The notes below the pieces were generated by a model. The model did not search any database. It saw nothing but the letters and a program-made list of their open reading frames with translations, and was not told the DNA's origin. A stretch of DNA of 64,000 nucleotides, from positions 1,054,001 to 1,118,000 of the forward strand of contig NGZR01000006.1 of assembly GCA_002197995.1 (NCBI GenBank), in the 5' to 3' direction. Shown here piece by piece: positions 12,234 through 64,000 of this stretch (positions within the stretch are counted from its first letter, which is position 1; each line of letters begins with the position of its first letter). Made by a program: the position numbers and the translations under genes. Origin of the DNA: Gaeumannomyces sp. JS-464 (taxonomy: Eukaryota > Ascomycota > Sordariomycetes > Magnaporthales > Magnaporthaceae).

Positions 12234-13724
12234 GCTCCGACTTCCTTGAGGCCTACCCTTCCCGGCCCCCAAATCGGCCTCACTGGTCTGGGACCGTCTT
12301 TTTCTTCTGCTACCCTTCATGTTTAGTTTATGCGCAGATTTGCGGTCTTTGTTTTAATGACAGCCTCGCTTGATGCTTTTTTTTTCCTCTACCGTTTCCC
12401 GTTGGAATGGGCTTTTCACTCTCACAAAATTATACGATGAAAATTACCTGCCTTGGTTTTCTTGTCGTGCGTCATGCCCTTTGTTACGTGTTCTTCGGCG
12501 CCAACGGTCGTCTTTTTCGTTTCACACGAAAACTTTCATGGACCTATCGTATAGCTCTCGTTCTGCTTCCCGACAATAAAAAAAAAGGTGCAACGTCGTC
12601 TTGGTGCTCCTAGATATGTAAAACAACCCCATCGAACACCTCGGAGCCAGCCCTACAGTTTCCGACCCGTCCTCCCACCCAGCACACCATGCCGCCCAGC
12701 GGCGGCTTTCGGGTCCGCGACGTTAGCGTTCCCCTCTGTAGTTTTCCGCATCGCGCGGCGGCGAGCCTCGCGCCACTGGGCCGCATCTCCGCAGGTAGCT
12801 AGCGGGAGTGGCGCAACACGAGCCCAGCAGTGTGGGTGCGGCGCGATGTGATTTGATTGAGAGGCCGAGGGCATAGGATGCATCCTTGAGTTCGACAAAT
12901 TAAAGCGCGCCAGCGTCTTGGAGCCCCCGGAGGAGCTGAGAAGGGATTATGAGGACTGCAGCATCCATGGGCATTTGAGGGGTGATCTTCCTTTTCTGTG
13001 TCGATCTTCTCCAACTCTTTTTTTCTCGGCTCTTCTACTTCGGAACCAAGGTACCAAACGCAGGCACAGCCTGACCGATCCACAGAAGGAAGAAGTCCTT
13101 GAGATAGATGCGACTATATTTCCACTATGGTATGTTGTCCCCATAACCTCGATTCGTGGGCTTTCTCGCTGACTATCGCCGAATGTCCACTGAACGATAT
13201 CGACGCCGTCCCCCTGTCTTTTCCTTCACCTGCACAACACTCGAGCCCCTCCTAATTCGGGCTGCAGGTCCTGGGCACCTACCGAAAACGTGGGCACGAC
13301 TCGCTATCTGGCCTTTGAGAGCCGCCCGATTTACGAGGGCCAGGCGCCAAGCTACTGCAATGGTTGCTGCCTTGGGCTTCGCTCGATAGGGAACAGGCCC
13401 TAAAATTAGTTGGCGTCTGTTTCTCGGCATTCATTCAGCCCCATGCAGCCAGAGCCGGCGAGCTCGCAATATTAGCGGCCGTGGTCGGACTTGGGCTGTT
13501 TAACCGACTTTCGATGGAATTGCTTTTCTGAGGTGCGGGAGTGCGGCTGAACAAGGATGCTGGATTTTATATTTCTATCCGATTCCCAATCGTCTCCATA
13601 TAGTTTTCTGCAAAATTAACCGAGAGTGAAGGAAACGAGGTTCGAAAAGAGGCCTTCGACAGTATTCTCAGAAAATTATCAACTACAAGGCCACGACGCC
13701 CTCCACCCAGGCTCAGGACCAACC
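12234..13724. other. Intergenic, no gene seen
   Basis: It contains the probable 3' UTR of the upstream gene (T-rich around 12300-12600) and the promoter of the SDR gene. No ORF with family features on either strand. Confidence 0.5.
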
Positions 13725-14913
13725 ATGGCCGCCCTAGCCCCCGAAAACACACACCGCCTCGTCGAGGAGATCCTCCAATCCGCACCCGTCGACGTCAACC
13801 AGCCCTACGACGCTTCGCGGCTCACGGGCAAGACCATCCTGATCACGGGCGGCGCGTCGGGCATCGGTGCGGCCCTGGCCCGGCGCTGGGCGCGGCACGG
13901 CGCCTTCCTCGCCATCGGCGACCTCGACGCCGCCGCCGGCGAGGCCCTCGTCGCCGAGCTCCGGGCCTCGTCGGCGGGGGGCCGCGCGCACTTCTTCCAG
14001 CGCTGCGACGTCACCGACTGGCAGAGCCAGGTCGCCCTGTTCCGCGCCGCGGCGCGGGCCAGCCCCACGGGCGGCATCCACGCGGTCGTGCCGGCGGCCG
14101 GCATCGCCGAGCTGGCGTCGACGGCGTCGGGGCGCGGGTTCGAGAACCCGTCCGCCACCCTCAGTGGTGACGACGACGGCCCCGTGAAGCCGCCGTCGCT
14201 GGCCGTCATCGACGTCAACCTCACCGGCGTGCTGTACTCGGTGCACCTGGCGCTGCACTGGCTGGCCCGCAACGCCCCCGCCGCCGCCGCCCAGCAGCAA
14301 GGCCCGGACCGGGCACATCCTGCTCGTCGGCTCCGCGTCCGGCGTCTTCCCGCTGCCCGGCCAGCCGCTCTACTGCGCCGCCAAGCACGCGCTGACGGGC
14401 CTGTTCCGCTCGCTGCGCTGCACGGCGTGGCGGCACGGCGGCGTGCGCGTCAACATGCTGTGCCCTTACTTTGTCGACACGCCGCTCATCCCCGCGGGCG
14501 GCATGACGCTGCTCGCGGGCGCCGGGCTGGCGTCGGTCGAGGACGTGGTCGAGGCCGGCACGCGGCTCGCCGCCGACGAGGGGATCCGCGGGCGGGCGCT
14601 GACGATTGGGCCGCGGATCAAGATCAGGGACGACGGCGAGGCCGTCGAGTATGTGGAGGAGGAGGCTGACGATGACGCGAGGAGGGGAGGCGGGTACAGG
14701 CAGGGCGGCGGCGGCGGCGGCGGGCAGGCGGTGTGGGAGTGCTACGCGCACGACTACGACAGCGTCGAGGCGTTTGTGTGGAGGTACACGCGCCTGCTCA
14801 ACACGATCGAGCGCATCAGAGGATGGACTGGCTGGGTTAGGGATATGGTTTATATCTTGTTCTACCGGAACAACCCAAAGAAGGGCGAGAGAAATGCAAA
14901 GAAGCAGAGGTGA
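13725..14913 (+). CDS. Short-chain dehydrogenase/reductase (15-PGDH-like SDR)
   Basis: NAD(P)-dependent oxidoreductase with a classical SDR fold; substrate unknown. The start at 13725 has a CAACCATGG context. LTGKTILITGGASGIGAALA is the TGxxxGxG cofactor loop, CDVTDW the adenine-binding Asp, VVPAAGIAEL the NAG-like strand, VIDVNLTGVLYSVHLAL helix 4, GHILLVGSASG the catalytic Ser region and YCAAK the YxxxK motif. Adding the C-terminal part, the protein exceeds the usual ~250-300 residues because of an acidic and Gly-rich insert (VEEEADDDARRGGG) and a charged tail. The frame changes between the Ala/Gln-rich stretch and KARTGHILLVG (about 14280-14305), as if two bases were lost or one gained. 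No splice signal there explains it. Confidence 0.85.
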
Positions 14914-15174: not shown

Positions 15175-18100
15175 CTAAAACCGTGCGAAAGTGAGGTCAA
15201 ACTCCCGGATCCCGTCTGGCAGGTCCTTCCGCCCACGCAAAGCTTCTGCTGCGGCAACCCTAACGTTCCCGTCCTGGTTTTTGAACAAAGACACTATACT
15301 TTGGAGGATCGCTTTTGGCAGGTCCTCCCGCTTTCGCAAAGCCTCCGCTGCGGTAAACCTAACGTTCCCGTCCTGGTTTTTCAACAAAGACACTATACTT
15401 TGGAGGATGGCTTCTGGCAGGTCCCGCTTTCGCAAAGCCTTCGTTGCGGTAAACCTAACATCCCCGTCCCGGTCTTTTAATAAAGACACCATATCTTGAA
15501 GGATCGCTTCTGGCAAGTTTGGCAGGTTATCCAAAACACGATATGCATAGGATTGGGCTTCTGGGTCCGGATTTTTGAGCAATACCACGAGTTCCCGGAG
15601 GATCGCCTTTGGAAAATCCGACTGCTTACGCAGTATTTGGAATATAAGTTCCTTAGTTTGTAGATCCGGATTTTTAAGCGATTCCACGAATTCCCGGAGG
15701 ATCGCCTCCGGCAGGTACGATCGTTTGCCAAGGGCGTCTATTGTTGTCTCCCTAACGTGCGGGTCCGGGTCTTTTAACAATGACGCGATGTCCGGGAGGA
15801 TTGGCACGGGCAGGTCTGGCAAGTCCGAAAGGATTTCGCTCAGATGATATCCAAGGGCGTAGGATGTCGGCTGAACGTCAGCGATGACTTCCCGGAATGA
15901 CCAGATGGCTTCCTTCAGGTCTGTCGTCTCTCCAGTCCGAAGCCATTTGGCTCTCAGGAGAATTGCGAGACTGCCTAACTGTCCAGGCCGGCGCGGATCA
16001 CGCAACGGGGCGTTGTGCACGGCGTCCTGTACGGTTTGGATTGCCTTGTCGAGGGTCGCCATCGGCATGGTTCGCAAGGGATCGTTTCGTGTATGCTCAG
16101 TCTGCGGCCGGGTGGCAGGCCCGCCCTGACACGCGAGCGTCAACGCGAGGTTGGCCAAGCTTGTCAGAGTATCTGCTCCTCTCCCAGCATCCCCCTCTTC
16201 GTATTCATAACTCTTCTCTCGAGCAATTCAGCTTTTCCCCACCGGCTCTGGGCCCTGTGCACTGACGCCAGGTTGGCCATGCTGGTCAATGTATCGGGAT
16301 GCTCCTCTCCCAGCAACCACCTTTGATACACCGTCTGCGCCAGTAGCCGTTCGGCTTCTTCGAAGCGGCCCAGATTCTCGTATGTCCACGCGAGGTTGGC
16401 CATACTAGTTAGAGTATCGGGATGCTTCACTCCCAGAATCCTGTCTCGCGTTTCCATCACCTTCTCCTCGAGCGATTCAGCTTGTTGCCATCGGCCTAGC
16501 TCCCTGAATCCCGCCGCGCGACGAGCTAGTCGGTCGACTCTAGCCAGCTCCTCGACCTCCGCCTGTAGCAGAGTAGCGGGATGGGTTGCGCGGGCCGCAC
16601 TGGCGGTGCCACTTGGTTTGGATTCGGAGGGGTCTGACTTGGCAGCGCCAGCCGGCATTTTGGAGAATATCTCGCTGGACACGGCTCCCGCCTCAGGTTG
16701 CCGGTCTGGGGCCGGTATGCCTTGCTGTGGCTGGTTGTTCTCGCCGATGTACGTTATGTCGCCTGATTCTGCATCGGGCCTCTGGACTTCCAAGTCTCGA
16801 CGCTGGGCCTCAAGAGCCTGAGAAGCGCTCCATTCGAGACGAAATTTCTCTTCCTCAGGCTCGAGAATGTCCCGTGGCTTTACCCGTCGCAAGACTTCAT
16901 CCCAGTCAGGATACTGGTGTGTCGAGAGTTCACCCCCGTCATCCTCAGGCGAGACATTTGTGTTGTCAAACGCGGCAGCCGATAGGTCGTGGTCCATCTC
17001 CGATCCATCGTTGGGACGACAGTCGCAGCTTTGCCGGCCGCAAACCGAAACGGCTGGGGCGCCGGAGCCACCCGACCCCTTCCTGCTCCTTGCCTCATTT
17101 CTGGCCCCTGGACCCGCGGCGCTGTTGCCGTTCTCGCTATCTTCTTCGCCAACTAGATCGTCGCGGTCCGGTGGGAGAAACAGTGCGATGTCGTGCAAGT
17201 GCTTCTTGATGTGTTTGCGCAGCTTTTCTTGCGCGCCCGGCATGCTCGGATTTGGGAACTCCTTCTCGATGACATCCGGATAACCGCCACAGAAGGCGCA
17301 GCGGTCGAAGACCAGCGCCTCCCTACGCCGGGCAAACTCGGTCATTGTAGGCAGCAGCGATTCGGGTATGTCTCCTTGGTTCCGGATGTAGCGCTCAAAG
17401 TCGCTCTTGTCATCAAACCCTTTGTGCCCTTCCGCTGTTTCGATGTGCCACTGCTCAGGCAGATGGGCCGTCTGCATGTGACTGAGAAGGCCCTCGAACG
17501 TGTTCGGTACGTCAAACGGCGCTTCGCACTTTTCGAAAATGCAGAAGTAAGGCTCGAAGTCTTGGAGAACATGGTGACTGTTTTTTTTTCCTCCTCCGGA
17601 GTTAGTAATCGCTCTTTTTGCTCAATGGAGTCGTCTTGATTTGGGGGAGGGCCCATGAACACACCTCCAGCGATCCATGCGCGATTCTCGGGCGGGGAAG
17701 TACAGGCGGCAATACGGGCACACGAAGCCGTCCCTGCCAGCGACATCGGGCGGCCTAGGAAAGCCATGGTGGCGCAGAGTAGCCGACGCCACGCTCTCCG
17801 GCCGTTCAGGCTGGCGCATCTCGGGTGTGTCTCGGAGTTTGGTGTTCTGGGTCCTGGTGTAAATCGTGCCCCCGTCCGGTGGGAATGTTACGTGAGCCTG
17901 GGGCAAAGCGGCTAAGCCGCCGCCCGTGTGCTGGGGCGCCGGCGCCGGGCCTGTCTGGTCGCGCTTGTGACTTGGTGGACACACTGCGGCCGGTCCTGGA
18001 AACGGATCGGCCGGCGGACCGGTGACTCTCCTTGCTTCATGTGATTTTAGATAGGCAAACTTCATCCGCCGTCGGGCGAAGGATTCCGCAATTCTTTCCT

Positions 18101-18821
18101 TGACGACCTCTGTGGCTCGCTTCAAGTCGTCACCCCGCTGGAGCTTCTCCGCCGCGATCCTGAGAAACAGGTCGTACACCTGGTTAGGCCCTGGTTTCCT
18201 GCGGTAGCGGTCAATACGCTCCTGGCGATCCTTGGCGCCGGCGTCATGAACCCGTCTCGCAAGCCCATGAAGCCGGTCGATCGTGTCTTCGATATGCCTC
18301 CACAGTGTAGCGGCACCGGATGTCGGGCCCGCCGATTTTTCCTCCTCGTCCACCGAGCTCTCGGGCGAGGACAGGCTAGCAAAAGACAGTGACGACGTAT
18401 CACTACCTCTACCGCCACCGCAATCACCCTCGCTTTCGCCTGATCCGGTGGGAATTCGCTCCGCTGCCACTAGGTGATCGCGGCCTGGCGATTTCCCGGG
18501 CATCACGACGGGCGTGGCTGCCATCGCTGATACCGTAGGGAGGCGGCCGAGGTCGAGTCTCAGCGATTGCAGCAGTAGCCCGATGGCGTCGCATATCTGT
18601 GGAACGTCCTTGAGCCGAAAATCGATCGACCTGTGGCCGTGTTCATTTACGCCAAGCCTGGCGCACCAGATATTGAACTCGGCCATCTGACGGCTGGCCC
18701 GTTCGTTGGCTTCGTGTTCATCTTTCTCGTTCTCCTCTTGAAGCTTCCGCATCAATATCTGACAGTCGGCTGCCTGAAGAGCAAGGCTGCCCGAAGGCCT
18801 GGATAGTTTCACGGTAGCCAT
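15175..18821 (-). CDS. C2H2-like / TPR / HEAT-repeat protein, NLR-like architecture without a visible NTPase
   Basis: Probable intracellular sensor or scaffold. Domains in order: an N-terminal helical region with FNIWCARLGV and SIDFRLKDVPQICDAI; a Ser/acidic linker; FVCPYCRLYFPARE; then, after an 87 nt intron (17578-17664, with TTACTAAC), a Cys/His segment FEPYFCIFEKC...LLSHMQTAHLPEQW and FDRCAFCGGYP. A disordered stretch follows, then kinesin-light-chain-type TPRs (ILGVKHPDTLTSMANLAWTY, LLGEEHPDTLTSMANLASVH), a different TPR segment (LDKAIQTVQDAV...RTGETTDLKEAIW), and finally seven or more HEAT units of about 33 residues (LPEAILQSIVSLLKNQDGN). The third TPR lacks 4 bp relative to its sibling repeats (near 16170), which shifts the frame; downstream coding stays protein-like. 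No NACHT or NB-ARC domain is visible. It is divergent from the adjacent protease gene. Confidence 0.75.
15190..15800 (-). repeat. Tandem HEAT-repeat coding units (~33 aa)
   Basis: Successive units of about 96-99 nt encode LPxAILQxxVSLLKxxDGxVR. The three most C-terminal units (about 15230-15480) are almost identical at DNA level, while the earlier ones are diverged. One unit is 3 nt shorter. Near-identity of neighbouring units implies recent duplication or gene conversion, as seen in repeat domains of fungal incompatibility NLRs. Confidence 0.85.
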
Positions 18822-19363
18822 TTTCCTTCAATCTTAGAGTTGCAAGCTTTCCGCGGCGTTACTTTCCAAATACTGGACGTGGAAATGCCGAGGTCGATCT
18901 TTGTGGAAATTCAGCCCGGCCGGGGATGCGGCGTATGTCTTGTATTGGGTATCAATCTGCCCGCGAATGCAATATGCCGAGCATATCTGTGCCGCGGCAG
19001 GCGCGGTCGGATATGAGTAGCAGCAGATATAAGTGGCCAAGAACCATGGAGGGCCACATCAACATATTTGATGTAGGTACTAAGGTGCAGTGGGTATGTC
19101 AGTGGTGGGCTAGGTACCATCTACCTACCTAGGCGCAGATACAGATGTATGTGCTATCCAAAGACACCTCCTCAATACCACGTACAGGCACATGCAGAGC
19201 GGGGGAGCTGAAAGGCGGCCCAACCGTCCTGGCTGCCCAATAAAAACAGGCAAGGCTGGGCATACCCAAGGTGAAATATTGCGCAGAAGGCAAAACGAAG
19301 CTCAAAATAAACACGTTTTATTTGAAGCGGCCCTTCTGAAATCACCTCCAGTCCAATACACCC
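18822..19363. promoter_or_regulatory. Shared divergent promoter region
   Basis: These 542 bp separate the start codons of the TPR/HEAT gene (-) and the DUF7580-subtilisin gene (+), so both promoters must lie here or overlap it. A CTACCTACCTAGG stretch sits at 19121-19133. No core promoter element was assigned. Confidence 0.5.
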
Positions 19364-22300
19364 ATGTGGCAGCTTCAGTTGCTTTGCGATGTTGTTCCAG
19401 TGTTTCACATGCTGGCGCTGCAGCTGCGGCGCGAGCGGGAGGAGGGCGGGGAAGACGACGACGACGCACAGCTAGTGCCGAAGCAATGCCTAGGCGACTG
19501 CTACGTTGATATTATGAATATCGAGGCGGCCGTGTTGGCATCTCGCGGGGAGTGGAAGCCCGGCCTGGATGAGGCTGTTGTAGCCCAGCTACTGAAGGCA
19601 TTGGAGAGCCGCATCCGGAAGAGATTCAGCTTATTTGAACAAAAGGTACGCGCGCAATCCGCTATACTTATTGTGTCGGGATATGACCAGATGACGGCCT
19701 GCTAAATGGTAGAGGAGGATACCCGCTTATCAGCCCCCGTTTCCCTGGCCGTTTTCGACTGGCGCCGCCAATGCCGACGGCCCTGCGGAGAAGTTCCCAG
19801 AATTATATGCGCTCCAGGCCCGAGCCTTGGCGATTGCGCAAAAGGTTGATCTCGAGCGGGATAAGGCAAGCGGGGTGGAGAGTGACGACGACGAAGACGG
19901 CGCCGGAGGCGGGGCAACGCAGACGGCAGACGAAAAGAAGGCGCAACTTTGCTTGGCCGAGATGGCTGGTGCCATTCGCCTCTTCCGCCGCGAGAAGACC
20001 TCGAAGGAGACGCATGAGCGGGAAAAGTTCCTTAAGATCGTCAAGAAGGCGAGCCGCCACCTGTTGAAACTATACTTCGAACCACCGCAGGCAGGAAACA
20101 GACCCCCGAACCTGGCAAGACACCCGAGCAATGGCGTTAAGAAGCTGGCCGATGGCGCGCATGGCCTTCTGGGTCAGCATTGGAACTGCGGATGTCGCTG
20201 GCGGCGGCCCCGAGTGCCCGGGAGGCCCGCCTCAGCCTAACCCGTCACCGCCAGTTCCTGCTGGAGGCTGTTGCGGCGCCACAGCCGGAACGTGCCCTGC
20301 AAAGGATCGACGCCAAATTCGAAATCCTTCTTCCCGTCTGTAAGGATCGCGTCACTTGGAAGGTGACAGACGTCCGTGTCATGGCCTACATGTGAGCGAA
20401 ATCTTTTTGTTTCCCGTTTGCCGCGCCAGGCTGCCATGAACAAATAACTTGGTAACTTACCAAGCCGTGTGTGTAAACGTGGGCCGGCATCGAAAACCCC
20501 TAAATCCCCGGTCAACAACAATCTCTGCCCCCTGATGCTGAAAAGCGACGCGGTGAAGGTCAATCTGTGGGCCGAGTACGAGAAACGGATTCTCTGGGCC
20601 CTCCATCCACCGGCGCCTGGAGAGGCCTGTGAACACTCTGTCATGGAGTCGCTCCACGAGCTCCTGGGGATGACCCTGCCGCACCATCCACGGCACGCAT
20701 CTCGAGGTACGACTACAGGGACAGATTAGCGTTAGCCTACGTCTTGGCCACGTCCGTCTTGTATCTGTACCCAGGTATTTGGCTTCAGACGGAATGCTGC
20801 TGGAGCAGCGACAAAATATTGTTCACGCGGTGCGCCCGCGGTGAGGGCCGCCTGCTTGCAATAAAGCGGCCGTACCTCTCGGCCGACCTACTGCGCCGGC
20901 AAGAAAAGCCCAAGGCCGATCCCGTAACAGTGTCTCGGTATCACCTCCACCCAGCAGTGCTGGCTCTCGGCATCATGCTCCTAGAGATTGCCACCAGTAC
21001 CAAGTTCGATGCGCTGTGCGGAAAGAAACGGTGCGACAGAGATCGGCTGAACGAAGCATGTCGGACAGCGATGGCTCCCAGCAACGCGGATGGCGCCATG
21101 GCACTCAACGCGCTTGAACAGCTTGAGAAGCAGCCGTCGCGAGATGTCCCTTCCTCTCTCTGCGAAGCCATCCGCGCCTGCCTAGTCCTCCGCCCGCCGA
21201 GCGCCCTGCCAGACCAGCTGCTGTCTGAGGAGGGGCCCCTGCGCTTCTACGTGCTCACATGCGTGGTGGCTCCGCTGGCGACCGCCTTGGAAAAAGGACA
21301 TGGTATACAACTGGCTAGCCTGGTGGACGACGAGGACATTCGTCCGGAGACAGCCCCAGATCCGCTCCCGCTTCGAGTTGAGCCTCCCAATGCCCTCGAT
21401 GGAACGACGAGAAATCAGGGTAAGTATACATTCCTTTGGAAAATTGTTTCGTAGAATCTCTGACTAACGACTACCGGCTCCCATAGCGCCGAGACGGGAC
21501 GACACGCAACATCAACGTCAGGCTTGTCTTCGAGGTGGCAAAGAGGATTTCATAGAAGGCGCCAAGTATGAATACGCCACAGTCCCTTTGCTGTTCTTTT
21601 CTTCCCCCAGCCCACGATTTTGCAGTATCGTGCTAACAATAAGACCAGGATAAAACAAACTGAACAATGGTTTGGGTTTTATAATGACATGCTGAACCGG
21701 GTCTATCGCGACAAGCGAAGTATCTACCGCCGCAACCAGAAGAAGGTGGCCATCGCGATACTTGACAGCGGCATCGAGCTGTCCGAGACGCAGAAGGATC
21801 AATATCTCCCCAGACGCAAGGTTGTGTATCGAAGCTGGGTCGACGGCGAGGCCCTGGGAGGCAACCCGTCCCAGGACTGGAAGGATAACGTCGGCCATGG
21901 CACCCATCTCTCCACCCTCCTGGCCAGAGTTGCGCCCATGGCCGACATACACGTTGCCCGAGTGTTTGAGCGGCCGCGACCAGATTTGCACACAGAGACA
22001 GAGAATGTCGCCCAGGTAGACCGGCCCCCACCCCCTTGTAGCACTGTGTCGTGCTATGCCAGTCATGCCATTTCCATCACACTGGACGGAGGAATCAACA
22101 GAGCTGACTTTTTTCAGGCGATTTGGCACGCAGTTGATAAGTGGAAGGTCGACATCATTGTCATGTCGTTTGGCTTCGCCGCGGCTCAGGACGCCGCAGA
22201 CCCCAAGGACTCCATGCTCCAGGCGATCAGGCACGCCGCGGCCCAGGGCGTGAGCCTGTTCGCGGCCGCATCCAACGACGGCAAGAACCGGCCGGACGAA

Positions 22301-22734
22301 GTGGCGTGGCCGGCCCGGGCGCCCGAGGTGATATGCGTTCACTCGTTCGACGGCGCGGGGAACCCGTCAGACTTCATACCCGGCGCCGACAACGACCAGA
22401 CCCTTGCCGTGGTGGGCGAGGCCGTCCTGTCTGCATGGCCTGAGAGGCTAGGGCGCGGCCAACGCTACATGAGCGGCACGTCGTGTGCGGCCCCATCGCG
22501 GCCGGCATGGCCGCCGTCGTTCTCGACTACGCCCGTGCCTTCCTCACCAACGACGACTGGCTGGAGCTGCGCAGAGTCGGGGGCCTGCGCCGCATATTCG
22601 ACAGGCTGAAGCACTCTCGGACCCCCAACTACTCTTACATCCGGCCGTGGGATATATTTGGCGAGCAGCGGACGGATGAATGGATCAAACAAGAGATTAA
22701 GATAGCCCTTGGACCGCTGAGAAGGTCAATCTGA
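19364..22734 (+). CDS. DUF7580-like domain fused to subtilisin-like serine protease (S8)
   Basis: Intracellular-type protease with no signal peptide. The N-terminal half resembles fungal DUF7580 proteins: MNIEAAVLASRGEWKPGLDE, KKASRHLLKLYFEPP, then YRDRLALAYVLATSVLYLYP and HPAVLALGIMLLEIATSTKF. The C-terminal S8 domain has AIAILDSGIEL (Asp), VGHGTHLSTLLARVAPMADI (His), AASNDGKN (oxyanion Asn) and MSGTSCAAP (Ser); all catalytic residues are present. Introns: 19646-19733, 20392-20464, 21420-21486 and 22016-22117 (phase 0, CTGAC branch), plus probably one between 21560 and 21645 whose borders I cannot fix. Frame breaks near 20200, 20705 and 22491-22494 (CCCC just after the catalytic Ser) each look like one lost base. 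It converges on the gasdermin-like gene 157 bp away, as in known fungal protease/gasdermin pairs. Start and the middle junction are the weakest points. Confidence 0.82.
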
Positions 22735-22891
22735 GCCTGATATCGGATACCTACAGCGATCCTAATGTTGTTTTTGGATGTATCGACTAGCATAGCCTGC
22801 ATACCCAATCTCATTGACTTTGAGAAATTGTTTTGAATAGCACGACTGTAGACAAGGTAGTTGATCCAAGAGGCATCTGCCGGCCTACCAT

Positions 22892-23719
22892 TTAATGCTG
22901 AATTGTCACAATCTCCTCCGCGTCCGGGAACTCATCAAGTATGTCCTCCTCGCCCACCGGCTCCGCGTCCCAAGACGGAGGCTCCTCATCCTCGCTATCG
23001 TCGCCAATGCCGTACTGGCCGCCACTGAGGTCCTTGTACCGGACCTCGTCGTGCCCCTTGGGCCGGATCTTGATGGCGCGATAACGCAAACACGATCTTT
23101 CCGACGTCGGGCCGTGCGAGACCTCGCGCGAGGAGCCAAACGCCAGCTCGAACTTGGGCCCGCGGAGACGGGCACGCCGAGGCCGGTCGCATCCACGGAA
23201 ACCTCGAGCCCGGGCGCGTGCTCGGCGCTGCTGCTGCGGGAGACGGCGAAGCCCGTGGCGACCTTGAGGCCCGTGATCATGTAGACGCGCCTGGCGCGAA
23301 GAAGGAGGAGATGGCGCCGCCGCCGCCGCCCGGAAGAAGTCCTGCACGCGTGGCGACGCCGTGATGCTGTCCCGGATAAACTGCTCATCGGGCTCGAACT
23401 CGACCGTCTCGAGCGCGGCGCATCGGTACGTGTCGTGCCGGTCGCTGGCGAACGCGTAAGTCATGCCGCCGCCGCCGGGCCCCTGGGCGAAGCTGGACGA
23501 GAGGCCCACGCTGCCCGCCACGCTCTCGCCGGCCTTGTCCTGGAATCCGACGACGCTGACTTGGTTGACGAGGTTTGTCGGGATCGAGAGCGTCTCGTCC
23601 TGGTTCAGCGGTGCCGTCAGCCGGCTGAGGTTGGAGAAGATGCTGCCCAGCCTCGGTGCCGTGGGGCTCTCGGACGAGATATCGAAGCGTGGGGCACGAA
23701 AATACAGCAGTGTCGTCAT
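22892..23719 (-). CDS. Gasdermin-like protein (RCD-1/HET-Q1 family), predicted membrane-pore former
   Basis: About 275 residues, no signal peptide. The N-terminus reads LLYFRAPRFDISSESPTAPR followed by LGSIFSNLSRL and APLNQDE, the layout I know from Neurospora RCD-1 and Podospora HET-Q1. Then come VEFEPDEQFIRDSI, RRVYMITGLKVATGF, DATGLGVPV and LRYRAIKIRPKG. The last ~45 residues are acidic (IGDDSEDEEPPSWD, EEDILDEFPDAEE), matching the short C-terminal inhibitory tail that proteases remove in fungal gasdermins. Family knowledge: the cleaved N-terminal part inserts in the plasma membrane and kills the cell. The middle needs frame changes at about 23325, 23290 and 23158; each fits one lost base and the three together return to the starting frame. 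The gene faces the subtilisin gene, its likely activator. The cleavage site is not identifiable by eye. Confidence 0.8.
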   Translation of the reverse strand: MTTLLYFRAPRFDISSESPTAPRLGSIFSNLSRLTAPLNQDETLSIPTNLVNQVSVVGFQDKAGESVAGSVGLSSSFAQGPGGGGMTYAFASDRHDTYRCAALETVEFEPDEQFIRDSITASPRVQDFFRAAAAAPSPPSSRQARLHDHGPQGRHGLRRLPQQQRRARARARGFRGCDRPRRARLRGPKFELAFGSSREVSHGPTSERSCLRYRAIKIRPKGHDEVRYKDLSGGQYGIGDDSEDEEPPSWDAEPVGEEDILDEFPDAEEIVTIQH

Positions 23720-24777
23720 TTTGCTGCTTTAGGGCGAGGGGTGTATTGACGACGGCCCAGCGAGGCATTTCGCTGTGCAGAGTATGCCCGAATCAAAGGC
23801 TCATGGGCCTCGTTTGCCCAAATTACATGGCACAAACCGGGCAAACAGCACGCCGCCGGGCGGATGCTTACCTAGGCAACTGGGCCAATCAGGATGCGAG
23901 TGTCAAGAGTTTCGCGCAAGGCTGACTTGTGTCTGAGGCTGGCGCGCCGAAACGTCTGAATATGCCGAGGTGGAGGGAAAGCGAGGGCCAGACACAGACT
24001 TGTGGCAAATCGAGGCCCTTCCCATATCCTGGCAGCACCGACAACGTCCCGGCCCATGGCGCAGGCCGCGTAATTCGGTGTCGATAGAATTGGAGGAAGA
24101 TCTACGAAAATTTTCATCAACGTCACATCGTAGTGCGTTCCAGGGAAAGAGGTGGTGCTGTGGAGGATTTTGGCCTTAGTATCCTGAACATGACGCAAGC
24201 CTCATCTGGGGGGACGCCGCGATAGGAGCTGACCCGGTTCGAACGCTTGCAAAAATTGTCGAGACCATCAGATAACAGGAAATTCACAGGGTCGAGCAGG
24301 CCTTCCAAAAAGTGAAGAAGAGAAGTAGGGGATTCAATCTATCTTGGTTCCGGTGGACAGGCCCCGGGCTGCAAAGAGGGCATAGCTAAGAGCGCGTGTG
24401 GCAGAGCAATCGGCGTGGCGAGGGCTCCTAGCATGGGATTCCGTCATGAGCTCGCCTTTGTGGTTGGCCTCAGGGGGAACCACATGGTCTCGAAGGTCGT
24501 TTCGTGGTGTCGTCTTCACATAACGGGCACTGCCACCACGGTGGGTGGCTTTTTTTTTACCTGTTTTCCCCACTCCCTTCGTGAGCCGGAGGGGATATGG
24601 GGTGTGGGCACTACTTGGTAATTCATGTATAAGGGCAAAGATCCTCAATGAGCTGCTACCTGAATGGATTTAGTGTTACTTACCTGACGTGGTGCTATAA
24701 CACGACAGCAGGGTCATGTCTAGCAAACCCGCCATCCCGGCCGGGACCGTTCCGCAACGCCGCCGAATCCCTGACTA
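23720..24777. other. Intergenic, no gene seen
   Basis: It covers the promoter of the gasdermin-like gene and the stretch downstream of the HEAT relic. A plus-strand T run is at about 24548. No supported coding sequence. Confidence 0.5.
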
Positions 24778-25693
24778 TCACTCCCGGCTGGTTCTTTCGC
24801 GGACCGAGAGCATCACCCGCAGCGTCGCTTCTGGCAGGTCCTCCCGTCGACGGAAACATCAGCCGCAGCGGTCCCAACCTCCCAATCCGGGTCTTCTAGT
24901 AGCGTCGCCATATCCTGCAGCATCGCTTCTGACAGGCCAGGCTGCCGACCGAGAGCGCCGACTGCAGCGGCCTTAACGAGCTCATGCGGGTCTTTCAATA
25001 AGGCCGCCATATCATGCAGTATCGCTTTTGACAAGCCCGGTTGCTGACCTATAGCTAAAACCGCTTCCTTCCTAGTGGGCCAGGTCGGATCTTCGAATAG
25101 CGCCACTATGTTTTGGAGGATCGCTTTTGGCAGGCCCGATCGGTTAGATAAAACGGCCGATGCACGACTTTGACCTCCCGGTCCTGATCCTTAAGCAATG
25201 CCACGATTTTTTGAAGGACCGCTGTTGGCAAGTCTGGCTGCTCGTTCAGGATCATAAGTGCGCGGCGCTTGACTTCCTCTTCTGGATCTTTAAGCAATGC
25301 CGCTACATTATGGAGGATGGGCTCTGACAGGCCCGGCAGATCCAGCAAGACCTTCATTGCGGGGAAGGCAAATTCGAGGCCTGGATCCTCGAGCAATGCC
25401 ACGAGTCCCTGGAGGACCACTTCTGGCAGGTCACGCAGCCCGTGCAGGGCTGAAACAGCGCTGCGCCTGATGGCCAGGCATGGATCCCCAAACAGTGCCG
25501 TTATGTCTTGGAGGACGGCTTCTGGAATGCCCGGCTGCATTCGTAGCATTAAAACCGCAGCAGACCGAATTTCGTGGTCCGGGTCTGCGAGCAATGCGAC
25601 GAGATCCTGGAGCATCACTTTTGGCGGGTCCGACTGCCGAGAAAGGACCGCCCCTGCAAGGGTCTTGATTCCTATGTCAGGGTCTTTGAGCAA
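24778..25693 (-). pseudogene. HEAT-repeat array relic, 5'-truncated
   Basis: Nine or so HEAT units of the same family as those at 15.2-15.8 kb (MLQDLVALLADPDHEIRSAA, VLQDITALFGDPCLAIRRSA, ILHDMAALLKDPHELVKAAA), ending LPEATLRVMLSVRERTSRE and a stop at 24778. The array opens directly after an in-frame TAA with no ATG and nothing recognisable upstream: no TPR, NACHT or N-terminal effector domain. Two frame changes occur (near 25157 and 24860), each consistent with one lost base. Units are diverged from one another, unlike the nearly identical ones in the 15 kb gene, which suggests an old fragment. It is most likely the tail of a former HEAT-type receptor gene; an unrecognised upstream exon is the alternative. 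Confidence 0.7.
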
Positions 25694-25959
25694 TGGAGGT
25701 TAACGATAGGGAGATAACATGCGCCAAATATCTTGTGACTCCTAACGGCTTTGATCTGAACGGACCCCTAGCAGTCGCCCACTCGCCCGGTTCATGCCAG
25801 CCATCATCAGCCTACTTGGCATCTCAAGAAGTACCTAGGTACCTAGTTAGGCCGGGGAGGAATGTGAGGGTTCACCAACGAACACCAAAGGTCCAATGGC
25901 AGCAGCGAACAGGTTAAGGGGAGAGAAAGGGCGGGGGAAGGGTGGGGATGGAGAGATGA

Positions 25960-26933
25960 TTAGAGAGAACTTCCGTCATATCCCGCCTCCGGAACAGAAC
26001 GCGTGACAACGTAAAACTCCGAATCCTCGCCCTCCAGCTTCTGGTCCTCGCTGAACGCGTCGTCCTCCAGTTCCAAGTCCTCGCGGGCTACCGCGGCGTC
26101 CACGGCGACCAGCTCCATGTCCTCCTCCGCGTCATCTCCCCCCTCCCCGGTGAGGAAGGCCGTTCGGTCCGAAAACAACTCGCCCTCGGCCGCCCCGGAC
26201 CATTTCGGCCGAATCACATGCAGCCGGTACGCGAAGACGATTCCCGGCGCCGTGGTGAACGCCCTGGCCCAGCCCCGCCCGCCGCCCCCGGACAGGCCGC
26301 CCTCCAGCTCCACAGGCGCCGCGGCCGGGACGGGGCCGGACGCGCCGACGGACGGCCCCGCCTTCCTCTCCTTGCCCTCCGTGACGGTGACGGGGTCCAG
26401 GGCCACGCGGAGGCCGGTGATGACGTACGCGCGCCGCCGACCAAAGATGCCGCTGTCCATGTGCCGCCTCACCTCCTCCAGTTGCGTGATGGCCCGCAGC
26501 GCCGCCGGGGTGAAGACGCCGTCCAGCGTGCGCACCTCGTGGCGCGCCGCGCTGTAGGACTTGTTGGCCGACCACGAGACGCCCGCCTCGCCGTCGGCCG
26601 AGGCCAGCTCGAGCACCCTGGCCAGCAGCTTGGAGCCGAACCACCGGCTCTTGTGCGCCGAGAAGGTGCGGTCGCTCTCGACGAGGGTCTTGGCCTCCGG
26701 GATCGGGATGGCCGCGTTCTCCAACTGCGGGCCCAGGGAGGCGAGCGTGACGGTCGGCCGCCGCGGGTCGGGGATCACCCGTCCCAGGGCGATGACGCCG
26801 TCGGGAAAGAACGTGAAGTCGGGTGGGAGGAACTGCGTAGCTCACCCAGGGGTTAGCAAACACGACGCTCTGCCTGATGGATGTCGAACCACGAGTAAAA
26901 CTTCAGGAGTCGTACCCAGGTTTTGCTCGACAT
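25960..26933 (-). CDS. Second, diverged gasdermin-like protein
   Basis: About 297 residues from two exons. Exon 1 (26916-26933) encodes only MSSKTW; an 83 nt intron (26833-26915, TGCTAAC branch) follows; exon 2 begins FLPPDFTFFPDGVIALG. It shares its segment order with the gasdermin-like gene at 22892: a start region with LG, a long middle with VSWSANKSYSAARHEVRTLD and FTPAALRAITQLEEVRRHMD, then RRRAYVITGLRVALDP (compare RRVYMITGLKVATGF), then APGIVFAYRLHVIRPKW (compare LRYRAIKIRPKG), and a strongly acidic tail (EEDMELVAVDAAVAREDLEL). I recognise it as a conserved family of uncharacterised fungal proteins. Membership in the gasdermin fold is my inference from this colinearity. The exon 2 frame is intact throughout. 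Confidence 0.65.
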
Positions 26934-52730: not shown

Positions 52731-53156
52731 GGTCGGTTGCTGCCCAACCTCTCCCCCTCGGCGAGCAGCAGACCGATTGCCGATAGAGCTCTCCCGCTGG
52801 TTCTGGATGGAGGCTGCAAAACTCATCCTTCAGTCACCGATGGACGGCACCGCGCGACAACTTCAGCAGAGAGTTGCTGGGTGTTAAGTCTGAACGGTCC
52901 TTGATTAGCCTCTCCCTACCAATATCTATTTCTAAAGGCCGACAGGAAAAAGGACACGTATTATCAATTAGCTGATAGAAAATAAACCCTTGATTATAAG
53001 GATGTTCCGGGGCACGCCCCTTTTTGCTCCGGCACGCACCCTTCCACACTTTTGGCCCGTGCAACGCCTGTGGCTTCCGGTTTCGCAGGCCACGTAATTT
53101 CGCCTGCAGATTGAACTTGGTGTCACTTTTGATCCATTTTCTAACAACCGCCACCA

Positions 53157-53266
53157 TGAACGAAGTGATTACGATCTCGAGCGACGACGAGGCCGGGCCG
53201 GCCTCCGGCGAGGCTGCAGCCTTCCAATGGTCTGGTGTTACAATCAGGCTTCTGCTCCTAGGGTAG
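53157..53266 (+). pseudogene. Truncated N-terminus of an acidic SIM-containing protein at the repeat border
   Basis: ATG at 53157 in a near-perfect context (CCGCCACCATGA) begins MNEVITISSDDEAGPASGEA. VITISSDDE is a typical SUMO-interacting motif (hydrophobic core plus acidic tail), often found at N-termini of nuclear or transposon-encoded proteins. Coding ends after 36 codons, where a TGTTACAATCAG sequence begins (about 53235) and AT-rich repeat DNA follows. I read it as a gene start cut off by an inserted repeat. It could also be the N-terminus of a repeat-encoded protein. Confidence 0.45.
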
Positions 53267-54237
53267 GGCCGCCTAGGGGAGGTGTTCCTGAACAGTACGT
53301 CTGAAGGGGATCTGGTGAACTTGGTGACAATAGTCTAGATTGCTTGCCCAAGGGGGTGCCTTGGAGCTAACTTAGGTTAACTGATGCCGAAGCCTCAGTT
53401 AAAACTACCTAGGGCAGGTGGGAAACTCCCTTTAATATACTGGCTTTTTTCTTTTGTTTTTTTTATTTGAGTTTGTGGCTTTATTTTAAGTTTCCACAAA
53501 TTTATAAATCCCTTTTGGATTTATCGTTTTATTTTAAGTTTCCACAAATTTACAAATCTTTTTTAGATTTATCGCTTTGTTTGAGTTTTACAAATCCATA
53601 AATCCTTTTTAAGTAATTTGTTTAGTTACGTAATTTCCGCTTTTCGTTTATAAGGGAATGGGGTAAAGTATCGTATGGACCCTTTTTTTTTAAGGTTTTC
53701 GTGCTGGTCGTAATATTAAATTTCCTTTTTTAAGCCAAATCTTTTTAACTACGTTTTGCTATCTTTTTTTTTGTTAATAGTAAGTATTGTTTTACTAGCT
53801 TTTTTTTTTTATTTTATTTTAATTTAAATAAAATGTTTAACCGGGTGTAAAAACGTTTTTTTTTTGCAAAAAAAAACTTTTAACGTAAAAACCTGCTTAT
53901 TTAAAAAAAAAATATTATTAAAATGCTTTTTTGTTTTTTTTATTACGAGGTTTTAAAACGTAAAAAGTGCAAAGCTTTTTTTTTTTTTAAAATTTATCGC
54001 GGTGCGTGAAATGCTTTAATTAAAACCGCTTAAGTTGCGATATTTTAGGTTTTCTTTTAACCAATTGTGGAAAATTAGTAAACAGCACGTAAAATTAAAA
54101 GCCGAATTAAAAGTTAGGAAAAAACGCCGTGCTGTAAAACGGGAACTGCTTGCCGTAAATGCTTGAATTAAACGTTTGCGAAAGCAAAAAAAAAAAAAAA
54201 TATGGTTTAAAAGGAAAATGCGCGCGATTTAGCGCGA

Positions 54238-54301
54238 TATTAACGCCGTAAAGGAATTGGAACGAGTCGAGCGAAAGGAAGCTAAAAAGGCTGCCAGTTA
54301 A
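54238..54301 (+). pseudogene. Charged C-terminal coding relic, probably transposon-derived
   Basis: The plus strand reads RDINAVKELERVERKEAKKA and ends in TAA, preceded by a TAG that a C-to-T change from CAG would explain. Lys/Glu-rich tails like this end many fungal DDE transposases, but there is not enough left to assign a family. Confidence 0.3.
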
Positions 54302-54989
54302 GCGTTTGCCGCTTTTTCGAGTTTGTTAATTCCCGACCTTCCTTCGTTATTTCCGAGCTAAGCCGATTTCGAAATCGCGCACGACTCGAGTTTTTTAGCT
54401 TTATTTAACTCCGGTAAATCCTTTACTTTAATACGGGTGTTCCAAATCGAAGGCCGAGTTTTAGCATAAGGGTTAACTTTTTTTAAAGCTTTTTAATAGT
54501 ACTTTTTAAAAGCTTTTAGCGTTTTTTTAAAATTGGTTTTCTTTTTTTAAATGCTTTTTTTTAATTTCGTATTTTACCCATTTAACCGAGTGGTACTTAA
54601 TTCCGTTAATTACGTTTTCGTTTAGGATTTTTGCGATTTTAAATTTTTATTTCGGGTTAACTTTTATTAATTTATTACTTTTCGTAATAAAAAAATGCGG
54701 GTTTAAATAAAAAAACGTAAAAACTAAATAGGATTTTATAATTAATAATAGTTAAAATTCGTAATTAACGTTTAAAACCTTTTTTTAGCATTTTAAAAAG
54801 TCCTAATTTTATATAGTTTAATTTATCGTTAATCGTTTGGTTTTAATATTACGTTGAAAAAATAAGCGTTAACGTGGTTTACAAGCTTATGCTACAAACA
54901 AAAATATGTTACACCCACACCCGATTTTCGGTTAATTAACGTGCATATTAACCTAATAACGCTAGGAATTTATTTAAACTATTTGGAAT

Positions 54990-55480
54990 TGTATATATCG
55001 AGCGTTTTTATTTCCACCTAATAAGTGCGCGCATTATGTCCGGTTTCGCCGCAAGTGTTATATCGCCGACGAGTCGTCGTTACCTTCCTTTTTTAACCTT
55101 TATAATCGCTTATTTTATTATAGCTATTTATTTAACTCTTTTTAATTTAAAGCATTTCGTATTTTTTTAATAATATAAAACCCTTTTTATTAAACACGTG
55201 TTTTTTTAGCCTTTCGGCGTTTGCTAAATGTTCGTTCGCCTTTTTAAACGTAAATATTTCAGTTTGGAAAAGGGCCACTTTATGCATTATCGCTTTCGTT
55301 CCTTTTGCAATTTTGGTTTATAACCGTTAGCATAAGTATTAAATAATTGCTTTAGTAATTAGCGATTTGAGTTTTAATATGTTCGGATTGCGAAATTGCT
55401 TTTTTAACTATCCACGGCGTTTTAAAGGTTTAAAGTTCGGGGTTGTTTAAAAGCGTTTTTAAAAAAGTTAAAATTTGTAA
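54990..55480 (-). pseudogene. Relic of a pogo/Fot-type DDE transposase (C-terminal part)
   Basis: The minus strand at 55293-55195 reads AIMHKVALFQTEIFTFKKAN then EHLANAERLKKHV, a coiled region with the spacing seen after the DDE domain of fungal pogo-like transposases. At about 55072-55020 it reads YNTCGETGHNARTY. If both Tyr codons were Cys before G-to-A mutation, this is a perfect C-x2-C-x4-H-x4-C zinc knuckle. Several TAG/TAA codons follow where CAG/CAA is expected. The catalytic domain is not recoverable by eye. Confidence 0.6.
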
Positions 55481-55509
55481 CTTTACATTTAGCTTTTCTA
55501 AAACCGAAT

Positions 55510-55690
55510 TCGAATTAAAAAAAGTAAAGCTAACCTTTTAAAAACCTTTTTAAATGTTTTTTTTTCCCTTTATAAAGTTAAAAAATGCCGTTTTAAACGT
55601 TAAATTTTTTTTAACTTTAATTACGTAATTAACGTATAATTTTATTACGTTTTCGATTTATTAACCGTACGTTTTTTAACAAGTTAAAGC
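55510..55690 (+). repeat. Left arm of an inverted repeat (with 63839-64000)
   Basis: The reverse complement of this segment matches 63839-64000 over its length, including GTTAATAAATCGAAAAC and TTTAAAACGGCATTTTTAAC, with mostly transition differences. It lies just left of the copia element and belongs to the same unit as the pogo-type relic. Confidence 0.85.
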
Positions 55691-55821
55691 TATTACGGGA
55701 TTAAACCAAAGTAGTACCCGTTATATTAAAGCAAAAGGGAACGTTGTTATATCGAGGGTTACAACCCGCTAGGTTTTTATATAAGCGATCGTACTATAAC
55801 AAAAGCATTTAACGTTAAAAA

Positions 55822-56053
55822 TGTTGGTAGGAGTGGTACTCCTGTAAGCACGGAGATCTCCTAAAGGGAAAGAACAAAGATTTATAAATTTGGAATTGGT
55901 GTTTGTAGTGATGCATGTTTTCAGAAGGAATTTAATACAGGAAGGGGATCGCAAAATCCTTTTTGTAAGCTCGTGGGAGCGCACGGCCAGTGGGCTTGCG
56001 GCTTTACGAAGCGGCCCTTCCTGGATACACGCGCTAAATTACGTGGATTAACA
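55822..56053 (-). repeat. LTR (3' LTR of the copia element)
   Basis: Starts TGTTGGTAGGAGTGG and ends GGATTAACA, so it has TG...CA borders. It aligns end to end with 63139-63362; differences are largely C/T and G/A, for example CTCCTGTAAG versus TTTTGTAAG. Conserved cores include AAAGAACAAAGATTTATAAA and GGCTTGCGGCTTTACGAAGC (one or two differences). Confidence 0.9.
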
Positions 56054-57538
56054 TTGGCAATTTTTTCTTTAAACGCGTGCACCGGTAAATGCTCGCCTTT
56101 CAAATCCCAGGATTTTACAATACTAATAACAAAGGAATCCGGATTTGGTAACCTGTTTTAAAAACAAAGGAAAAAAGGGCAAAAGGATTGTGCTGGATAT
56201 CGGTAAGGACTGTGAATAAGGACTGTGAAATAGAAATAATAGGAAGTGAGGCAATGTTTAGTTAAGCGCTCGTGGAATTAGGTAATGCCGGATTAAGTGC
56301 GTACAATAGCAGTGAAATAGATTTAATAGAGATTTATTGGGCCGTATGCGTGCTAATCGGTGTAATAGGCAGGAGCAAATCGGAAGTATAACTTAAAAGG
56401 TTTGGGATATTTTAAAAGCCGTAGGCTTTGATCGTTGTGATTTAACTTGATTTTTACAACCACAAATATTAATATCCCTATTGCTTGCTTACCTGTTTGC
56501 CGATTTTTGCTTTATTGTTTTACTGCTCGACTAATTACCCGATAGTGTCCACTCGCTTTAAGGAGCTGGTAAGGGCAAATCCGTTAAAAAAGGTTAAATT
56601 AGCGTTAAAACGGTCCCAAATAGTGGCGTTAAAAAAACTCGTGCTAAAAAAGGAAAAGGTAAATCTTTGCTCGCCCGCGCTTTGCAAAAGGCAAACAAAG
56701 ATCGTTTTTATGCTTAAATTGCTTTAACTTTCTTTTGGCCGGCAAGTTTATAAAATTAGGTGCTTTAACACCGAGCCGGCCGGCAACCGTTGCTAATCTT
56801 GTGCTTTTGGTTATTCGTGCTAGCCGGTGTAAGTAATCTTTTAAGCTTTGGTTTGCTAATCTTTTGCGCTAACGATTGGTAGTTTTAAAATCGCAATAGC
56901 TCCAGCCAAAAAGTTTATAATAAATATTTCCGCGAAATTACTATTAATAAGGTATAATGGCTAATTTTTGTTTTAGCTGCTTTAATGCTTTGTTAACCGT
57001 ATTTTCGCTATTTTTAGGATTTCGCGAAATGGCGTACCACTATTAAATGCATAATCCTTTTTAAAAAGGAGGAATAGGTTGGTAAGGTTAACGCTAATCT
57101 TATTAAAATAAGTGCTGCTAAGCGGAAGCGGCGGGCCGCGCTGCCGTTTAGCGTATGTTCGATGCGGCGTTTTTGGGAGCAGGGACAGCCTATTTGGAGC
57201 TTTTAACGATAACGAGGATAAGGACGAAAAGATGGCCGAAAAGGAAAAAAAGGATAAAAATGCTAGTAATATCGACAAATAAGCTGGTAATATGTCCGGT
57301 AATAGTGGAGATTTTTTTAAAGCTTAGGATGGTTGTTCGTGGGATCGTTTTCCGGTTGTTTTGGCGTTTTAATGATTTCGTTTTTTTTAGTTATATTGTT
57401 AGCCATTTTTAGGTTATAATAAATCGATTTTAATTGCCTTCCTTCGCTTTTTTTTATTGTTTTTCGCGTTTTATTTAACCTTTGATTCGTACCGTTATCG
57501 TATTGCTTATAACCAAATTTTCCAAAGTTTTGTTTAGC

Positions 57539-57720
57539 TAATCTTTGGTTATCGCGTTTGCCGGATTATTTAATCCTACGATCCAGCGGATTTCGTCGAT
57601 TTCGCGCTTTTCGTAGGATTTTTTAAATGCTATAACATCGATTATAAGCCTTTTTTTCGCTGTTATGCCTAATTGTACGAGGCATTAATATAGCGAAAAG
57701 CTATCGGTGCAAATTATTAG
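57539..57720 (-). pseudogene. Copia RNase H C-terminal remnant
   Basis: Minus-strand reading: ICTDSFSLY, stop, then CLVQLGITAKKRLIIDVIAF, KKSYEKREIDEIRWIVGLNN and PANAITKD. This matches the conserved end of fungal Ty1/copia polyproteins. The internal TAA sits where CAA or a Glu/Gln codon is expected, so a single C-to-T change explains it. Confidence 0.85.
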
Positions 57721-60055: not shown

Positions 60056-60247
60056 TTATTTCGTGGTTAAAATCGATATCGTTTTAAAGTTTAAATCGAA
60101 AGCGTTATAATATAGGACTTTTTTTTTTAAATAAAAATGGCACATTCGGTTAATTATTGCGAAAGCGTCGCGATTAGCCTTGTGCTTTGCACGTTTTAAA
60201 ACGTTCCAAAGTTTATCGATAAATGGGTGTTTAAAGCGCTTATACAC
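60056..60247 (-). pseudogene. Copia integrase-like remnant
   Basis: 63-codon open piece with RDAFAIINRMCHFYLKKK and ILTTK, resembling the region around the first catalytic Asp of copia integrases (AFAIIDRxxxF...KKKSDA). The expected Asp reads as Asn (AAT from GAT), a G-to-A change of the kind RIP makes. The assignment is moderate because the rest of the domain is not readable. Confidence 0.5.
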
Positions 60248-63138: not shown

Positions 63139-63362
63139 TGTTAATAGGAGTGGTACTTTTGTAAGCACGGAAATCTTTTAAAAGGAAAGAACAAAGATTT
63201 ATAAATTTGGAACTGGTGTTTATTTATGTAGGAATTTAATTATAGGAAGGGGATTATAAAATCCCCTTTTGTAAGCTCGTAAAAGCGCACGGCCCGTAGG
63301 CTTGCGGCTTTACGAAGCGTGGGCTTTTTTTGGATGCACGCGTTAAATTACGTAGATTAATA
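63139..63362 (-). repeat. LTR (5' LTR of the copia element)
   Basis: Starts TGTTAATAGGAGTGG and ends GTAGATTAATA; the terminal CA of the other copy reads TA here, a C-to-T change. It is slightly shorter than the left LTR because of small gaps. See the left copy for alignment cores. Confidence 0.88.
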
Positions 63363-63838
63363 ATATTTATAATTTCGATAAAACTGGCGGTTTTATAATT
63401 ATAATCGCCGCTGTTATAATTATTATAACGTTAAAAAACCGTGGTAAAACAAAGCTAATCCGGTTTAACAACCGGAAATGAGCTACGGTTATTTAAAAGG
63501 TTAATTGCTACAATTAAGCGATTTTTTTTATTATCGTTAAAAAGTAATACCACTTAGCGAATTGGTATTTAAAAACCAACTTTTTACACGATTAAATTAT
63601 TTTAATAAATTTTAACGGGTAAATTACGAACAAACTCGGCTTAAAATGGATTTAACATTTTAATAAACACATTGCATCGCGTATAAAAAGCACTTATTTT
63701 TATTAATACTAAACGAATATAAAAACTAGTATTTAACGAATTTTAAACTTTATTATTAAAAATATAACCTTATTACGTTTTATATACTTTTGCATTTGTA
63801 TTATTATTTTTTAACCTTTTAATTTTAAATGTTTTAGC

Positions 63839-64000
63839 TTGTTAAAAAAAAGCGTACAGTTAATAAATCGAAAACTTAATAAAATTATACTTTAATTAGG
63901 TAATTAAAGTCGAGTTTTTCAGCGTTTAAAACGGCATTTTTAACTTTATAACTAAAAAAAACATTTAAAAAAGGTTTTAAAAAGCTAGGTTTACTTTTTT
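63839..64000 (-). repeat. Right arm of the inverted repeat (with 55510-55690)
   Basis: Reverse-complement match to 55510-55690, running off the window end. It shows that the repeat family left of the copia element is also present to its right in opposite orientation. Confidence 0.85.

Follow-up and report, generated by a model that had tools for sequence, protein, structure and literature searches.

A gasdermin and subtilase gene pair with a recurrent, divergently transcribed third gene in Gaeumannomyces sp. JS-464

Introduction

The locus described here raises the question of what sets off the protease that neighbours a fungal gasdermin gene. Fungal gasdermins are known to be cut by neighbouring proteases. 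HET-Q1 of Podospora anserina is reportedly freed by the loss of its tail when the subtilase HET-Q2 is present, while RCD-1 of Neurospora crassa is said to act without cleavage; what makes a fungal gasdermin protease fire is, to our knowledge, an open question. We analysed a 64,000-nucleotide stretch of DNA from Gaeumannomyces sp. JS-464 (the window), which corresponds to positions 1054001-1118000 of contig C31 in a 53.0-Mb genome of 34 contigs (C-numbers are contig labels throughout). Between positions 15175 and 26933 it contains, in this order, a repeat-protein gene (minus strand; here the partner gene), a protease gene (plus), a gasdermin gene, GSDM1 (minus), a HEAT-repeat relic (minus) and a second gasdermin gene, GSDM2 (minus). 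We conclude, with moderate confidence, that this is a HET-Q-type cell-death module with a recurrent third component, in which sensing would lead to protease activation, removal of the gasdermin tail, and pore formation and death.

Results

Relationship of GSDM1 and GSDM2 to fungal gasdermins

Searches with four gasdermin queries, together with a reading of locus E, placed gasdermin genes at six loci: the window, A (C12:1407-1411k), B (C12:8122k), C (C33:371k), D (C12:654k) and E (C1:15269k). A further match at C1:4889k (E = 0.52) was left out of the count. An earlier note on this DNA had guessed that the two minus-strand genes of the window are gasdermin-like. The guess gained support from profile searches, but not from Pfam, NCBIfam or single-sequence searches. 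Profile A2, an alignment of eleven pieces that all come from this genome, gave five matches in the PDB at E <= 10, every one of them a fungal gasdermin: RCD-1-1 (2.4e-7), RCD-1-2 (7.2e-7), the HET-Q1 pore (PDB 9uv9; 4.2e-6) and two further RCD-1 chains. The same profile gave zero matches at E <= 1 among reversed open reading frames from 21 sources. Two profiles that have no row in common were also used. The first, A4, consisting of rows from the window, B and C, matched RCD-1-1 (1.3e-5), three more RCD-1 chains (up to 0.0045) and HET-Q1 (5.3), and no others. The second, A5, consisting of rows from D and E, matched RCD-1-2 (1.9e-4), HET-Q1 (0.0057), three more RCD-1 chains and one unrelated protein (0.95). 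Profile similarity thus supports the assignment of both window genes to the fungal gasdermins of the RCD-1/HET-Q1 kind. Several results count against this assignment. The top PDB match of the window rows alone was again RCD-1-1, with a weak E-value of 0.024, and an unrelated chain appeared at 6.5; a Pfam search of the window proteins found no gasdermin match, nor did an NCBIfam search with three gasdermin sequences; single-sequence PDB searches with GSDM1, GSDM2, the locus-B gasdermin and a piece of the locus-E gasdermin returned nothing meaningful; and an AlphaFold2 model of GSDM2, made from four window rows, was of too low quality for use (pLDDT 41.9).

GSDM2 has a six-codon first exon, with its start at 26933, followed by an 83-nt intron (26833-26915), and it shares with the locus-B gasdermin the distinction of an intact frame. 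Its nearest relative is the gasdermin of locus C (40-52% identity), while that of GSDM1, with the copy at locus A set aside, is the gasdermin of locus B (34% identity over 297 amino acids); judged by sequence, the GSDM2 lineage is different from that of GSDM1. Past the last matched strand, all six gasdermins examined (GSDM1, GSDM2, those of B, C and D, and part of that of E, with copy A left out and the cut points set by eye) carry an acidic tail of 54-80 residues with a net charge of -6 to -21. The tail of GSDM1 is 54 residues long, and that of GSDM2 is 80 residues long with a net charge of -21.

The adjoining protease

The product of the plus-strand gene has a DUF7580 domain N-terminal to a subtilase domain (Pfam), and we take the segments AILDSG, GHGTH and SGTSCAA to be the D, H and S motifs of the protease. 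It is the subtilase domain with these catalytic motifs that adjoins the gasdermin gene (22734/22892). The convergence of the two genes, as described in the earlier note, holds as far as strands, domains and the 157 bp between the protease stop and the 22892 end of GSDM1 are concerned, but the endpoints cross frame breaks in both genes. On its other side, the protease gene starts 542 bp from the divergent partner gene.

A search of the genome gave at least 20 DUF7580 matches at E <= 0.001, representing at least 19 loci (two scored below the Pfam cut-off), and at least 48 matches to S8. The two domains coincide at five of the 19 listed DUF7580 loci, namely the window, A, B, C and E, and at all five a gasdermin lies beside the S8 end, in convergent orientation in the window, A and E and head-to-tail in B and C. 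A protease gene or a remnant of one adjoins the gasdermin at five of the six gasdermin loci. The pairing of a gasdermin with a neighbouring subtilisin-like protease is therefore supported by profile matches, by domain content and by adjacency at five loci. Locus D holds the only gasdermin with no adjoining S8 or DUF7580. There (C12:653764-657544, L020), the gasdermin converges, at a distance of about 700 bp, on a gene that contains, as judged by eye, the ADAM-like metalloprotease motif HEVGHTFGADHD, and a region that is AT-rich and marked by repeat-induced point mutation (RIP) lies upstream. This neighbour is possibly a different protease partner, or it may be there by chance.

The divergent partner gene and its recurrence

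The partner gene was described in the earlier note as a C2H2/TPR/HEAT gene divergent from the protease. The TPR and HEAT parts were matched by Pfam; the C2H2 motif was read by eye, with no Pfam zinc-finger match for the window protein and only sub-threshold ones in one paralogue; and the frame is broken. An 87-nt intron (17578-17664), with GT, TACTAAC and CAG identified by eye, lies inside the C2H2 motif. Exon 1 has a RIP-mutated copy at C12:1402034-1403239 (73% identical) and a weaker relative at locus B (28%, 2e-7). Neither NACHT nor NB-ARC was present among the Pfam families listed for the window protein (25 of 28 for the HEAT part).

A query from the C2H2-like region of the window (17145-17600) found eight places at E <= 1, seven of them outside the window, and all lie beside a DUF7580 match. 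A second C2H2 query, taken from the relative at locus G, gave 15 matches at 14 loci, 12 of which hold divergent C2H2/DUF7580 pairs with the matches 1.5-3.1 kb apart. The other two, C23:710k and C29:1943k, are without a divergent DUF7580 match, and seven of the 19 listed DUF7580 loci are without a C2H2 match. All five DUF7580-S8-gasdermin loci belong to these 12 pairs, each with a divergent C2H2-type gene upstream of its protease. The third gene is a recurrent partner of the gasdermin-protease pair; this recurrence supports the earlier note's proposal of the repeat protein as a partner. The probability of 12 of 14 under random placement is 4e-28, which takes no account of common descent; with the pairs being paralogues and two of them (the window and A) duplicates, it rejects chance, not common descent. 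The strength of the recurrence is reduced by three considerations: among paralogues it does not amount to independent events, the weakest C2H2 match among the pairs has an E-value of 0.34, and three of the 12 pairs (C1:740k, C1:3543k and C12:8217k) are known from match coordinates alone.

The C-terminal part of the C2H2-type protein differs between loci. It consists of TPR and HEAT repeats in the window and of ankyrin repeats at locus F (1.5e-12, in the same open frame); at locus B, no TPR or HEAT match was found and no NACHT was seen by eye. The locus-G partner has a PNP match (3.3e-7). At locus E, matches to NPHP3_N (2.5e-13 and 1.3e-9) and Ank_2 (8.5e-19) are spread across several frames, and the second half of the C2H2 motif and the linker to a PNP-like part lie in one open frame (L031:1936-3021). 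The locus-E partner thus appears, from its sequence, to run from C2H2 into PNP-like, NACHT-type and ankyrin parts, which is the architecture of a NOD-like receptor (NLR); the rest of its frame jumps would have to come from introns or consensus errors. Two points speak against such an architecture: the PNP-like part has no Pfam match and was read by eye from locus G, and several frames have to be joined.

The executor side varies as well: the domain after DUF7580 is S8 at five loci and PNP at locus G (3.7e-11, in one 870-residue frame). No gasdermin was found by profile in any of the four S8-less pairs that were read (F, G, H and L047), within the DNA stretches fetched. At locus G (C1:11502694-11512203; L039, L040), where the pair yielded neither a gasdermin nor an S8 match, a DUF7580-PNP_UDP gene is divergent from a C2H2-PNP gene with NACHT-like and ankyrin parts read by eye. 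At locus H (L042:2607-5226), the C2H2-type gene, divergent from a DUF7580 gene, overlaps a protein-kinase domain (2.8e-9) in another frame. In L047:4687-6977, a frame starting with MSGFEVAGVVLGAIPLVISALEHYR lies directly 5' of the DUF7580 frame and is divergent from a C2H2-type gene; it is similar to a domain that many fungal NLR-type proteins have at the N-terminus.

A RIP-mutated duplicate and the remnant of a second module

Four pieces of window 16823-24701 align with C12:1401237-1409388 (copy A) at 71-79% DNA identity, and a further piece comes from 26072-26184. The region shared by the divergent partner and protease genes, 18822-19363, is 83% identical to copy A, with 131 gap columns left aside. 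In 2-kb bins, TpA/ApT is 1.17-1.46 across C12:1398-1422k compared to 0.53-0.73 at the window locus, and the second RIP index is 0.77-1.07 compared to 1.08-1.38. With the window as reference, 472 of 648 protease differences (73%) are G-to-A or C-to-T, and copy A carries many stops. We read copy A as a RIP-mutated duplicate, judged by the usual index thresholds; the signature and the stops suggest that the locus was duplicated and one copy silenced. The C-to-T changes in copy A show no concentration at sites preceding A (the next base is T in 167 cases, A in 151, C in 90 and G in 80), which argues against textbook RIP. An AT-rich block (GC ≈0.31-0.36) occupies window 53000-64000, with strong RIP indices from about 52-53 kb.

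The HEAT relic, with two HEAT_2 matches, and the second gasdermin-like gene noted earlier were both confirmed. The relic, for which no start codon was found, shares 32-38% identity with the HEAT part of the partner gene (15175-16227); this identity is weak evidence, because HEAT repeats resemble one another. The orientation and place of the relic fit the partner of a second module that ends in GSDM2 and has lost its protease. The "four-part arrangement" of the earlier note is better described, we infer, as one three-gene module plus the remnant of a second (HEAT relic and GSDM2). All features are listed in Table 1.

Table 1. Features of the gasdermin locus, in window coordinates.
Feature	Position	Strand	Basis
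Partner gene, HEAT-repeat end; frame differs from TPR part as assembled	15175-16227	-	HEAT_2 4.4e-22
Partner gene, exon 2: C2H2-like region and TPR repeats	16164-17577	-	TPR_12 1.3e-21
Partner gene, exon 1: N-terminal region and first half of C2H2-like motif	17665-18821	-	Similarity to copy A and locus B
Upstream region common to divergent partner and protease genes	18822-19363	.	Two start codons
DUF7580-S8 subtilase gene; frame changes at ~20665 and ~22490 as assembled	19364-22734	+	Pfam; alignment with copy A
DUF7580 domain	20696-21295	+	PF24476, 9.4e-17 (genome search), 3e-18 (open-frame Pfam search)
Peptidase S8 domain	21740-22495	+	PF00082, 3.2e-15 (genome search), 1.2e-16 (open frame)
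GSDM1, first gasdermin gene; middle (~23310-23155) in another frame	22892-23719	-	Profiles; similarity to locus B
HEAT-repeat relic, two overlapping frames	24813-25699	-	HEAT_2 1.5e-14 and 4.1e-10
GSDM2, second gasdermin gene, two exons, intact frame	25960-26933	-	Profiles; similarity to locus C

Discussion

In the mechanism that we propose, the C2H2-type protein, with its variable C-terminal part, would recognize a trigger and then act on the product of the divergent DUF7580-S8 gene, with DUF7580 as the probable point of action. The protease would remove the acidic tail of the neighbouring gasdermin, and the freed gasdermin core would insert in membranes, so that the cell dies. The C2H2-type protein is the likeliest sensor or trigger because it is recurrent and its recognition-type ends are exchangeable.

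One difficulty is that three genes of the window, namely the protease, GSDM1 and the repeat gene, lack a continuous open frame in the assembly, with the places of the breaks determined partly by eye, and that frame changes are also found in the gasdermins of C, D and E and in the locus-E partner gene. The window copy may consequently not work, and may itself be decaying. We give somewhat less than even weight to the stronger version of this idea, in which the window locus is a dying copy with real frame-shifts, only GSDM2 survives, and working modules reside elsewhere, for example at locus B. Such decay would be in keeping with the frame changes in three genes, the HEAT relic and the RIP-mutated duplicate, as well as with our uncounted impression that genes of the gasdermin modules are more often broken than their neighbours. 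The frame change between the TPR and HEAT parts (16164-16227) does not, by eye, lie at a base run, which also points to decay. Both protease breaks, on the other hand, the second of them just behind the catalytic serine, fall at short runs of G or C that have another length in copy A, and protein similarity continues on each side in the other frame. Two unrelated genes look broken as well, by eye: a coiled-coil gene at locus G (C1:11500.2-11501.7k) and a short-chain dehydrogenase gene at window 13620-14913 (2.2e-13). The latter has its apparent frame change in a GC-rich stretch, so some of the breaks in the assembly may be consensus errors. Furthermore, G/C runs of six or more number 15 in window 1-52000, about threefold fewer than the first-order expectation of 47, and 39 in 12 other loci, twofold fewer than the 84 expected. 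This deficit is suggestive of consensus errors, which would give such a pattern, although selection could do so as well. Introns were considered as an explanation of the frame changes in GSDM1, and none keeps the conserved residues, as judged by eye.

A different role for the C2H2-type protein, as a DNA-binding regulator working through the shared upstream region, or as a protease inhibitor, would remove the sensor from the scheme. The zinc-finger-like motif and the head-to-head arrangement at 12 of 14 C2H2 loci would suit a regulator, as would the locus-B partner, with no TPR or HEAT match and no NACHT seen by eye. However, the C2H2 part seems joined to NLR-type parts at E and apparently at G, to ankyrin repeats in one open frame at F and to TPR repeats in the window, which fits recognition better than promoter binding, and we consider such a role unlikely. 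It is less probable still that the gasdermins act without cleavage, in the manner of RCD-1, and that the protease has another substrate: the PDB sequences nearest by E-value are indeed RCD-1 proteins, but all six tails examined are acidic and of substantial length, and a protease gene or remnant adjoins the gasdermin at five of the six loci. That the repeat gene is a chance neighbour of the pair is very improbable. Repeat-protein genes are common in fungi, but a C2H2-type gene stands divergent at all five DUF7580-S8 loci and a DUF7580 match at 12 of the 14 C2H2 loci, far beyond random placement even if that calculation ignores common descent.

Beyond the cell-death module itself, we raise only tentatively, as a doubtful extension, that the C2H2-receptor/DUF7580-executor pair is a modular counterpart of the inflammasome that works in trans. 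The receptor would swap its C-terminal sensor (TPR-HEAT, ankyrin, PNP-NACHT-ankyrin or kinase) and the executor its effector (S8 with a gasdermin, PNP or none), and the whole would be inherited as a three-gene cassette.

Among the closest known systems is HET-Q1/HET-Q2, in which a fungal gasdermin with a C-terminal tail is likewise encoded beside a subtilisin-like protease. The present locus may differ from it in the divergent C2H2-type gene, in the DUF7580 domain on the protease and in having two gasdermins. The RCD-1 proteins (PDB 8jyx, 8jyy and 8jyz) are the best-scoring solved relatives of the gasdermin core, whereas the genes described here encode acidic tails and have a neighbouring protease gene at five of six loci. 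The mammalian inflammasome (NLR, caspase-1 and gasdermin D) resembles the proposed order of receptor, protease and gasdermin, and locus E has an NLR-like gene; here, however, a subtilase takes the place of the caspase, the window partner has TPR and HEAT repeats and no NACHT match among the families listed, and common descent of receptor or protease is not claimed. Fungal NLRs that carry a protease as their N-terminal effector domain also link NLR architecture to proteases and gasdermins, but in the present case the protease and the receptor-like protein are separate, divergent genes. Bacterial gasdermin operons share the neighbouring protease, in contrast to which the genes here are eukaryotic, with introns, RIP, and DUF7580 and C2H2 parts.

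The third gene repeatedly lies head-to-head with the protease gene and resembles an NLR at one locus, which makes it a testable and direct candidate for the receptor still missing from fungal gasdermin systems. It also points to DUF7580, a domain of unknown function, as the part that may couple receptor and protease. If the proposed mechanism is true, the chain of receptor, protease and pore would be packaged in this fungus as exchangeable genes.

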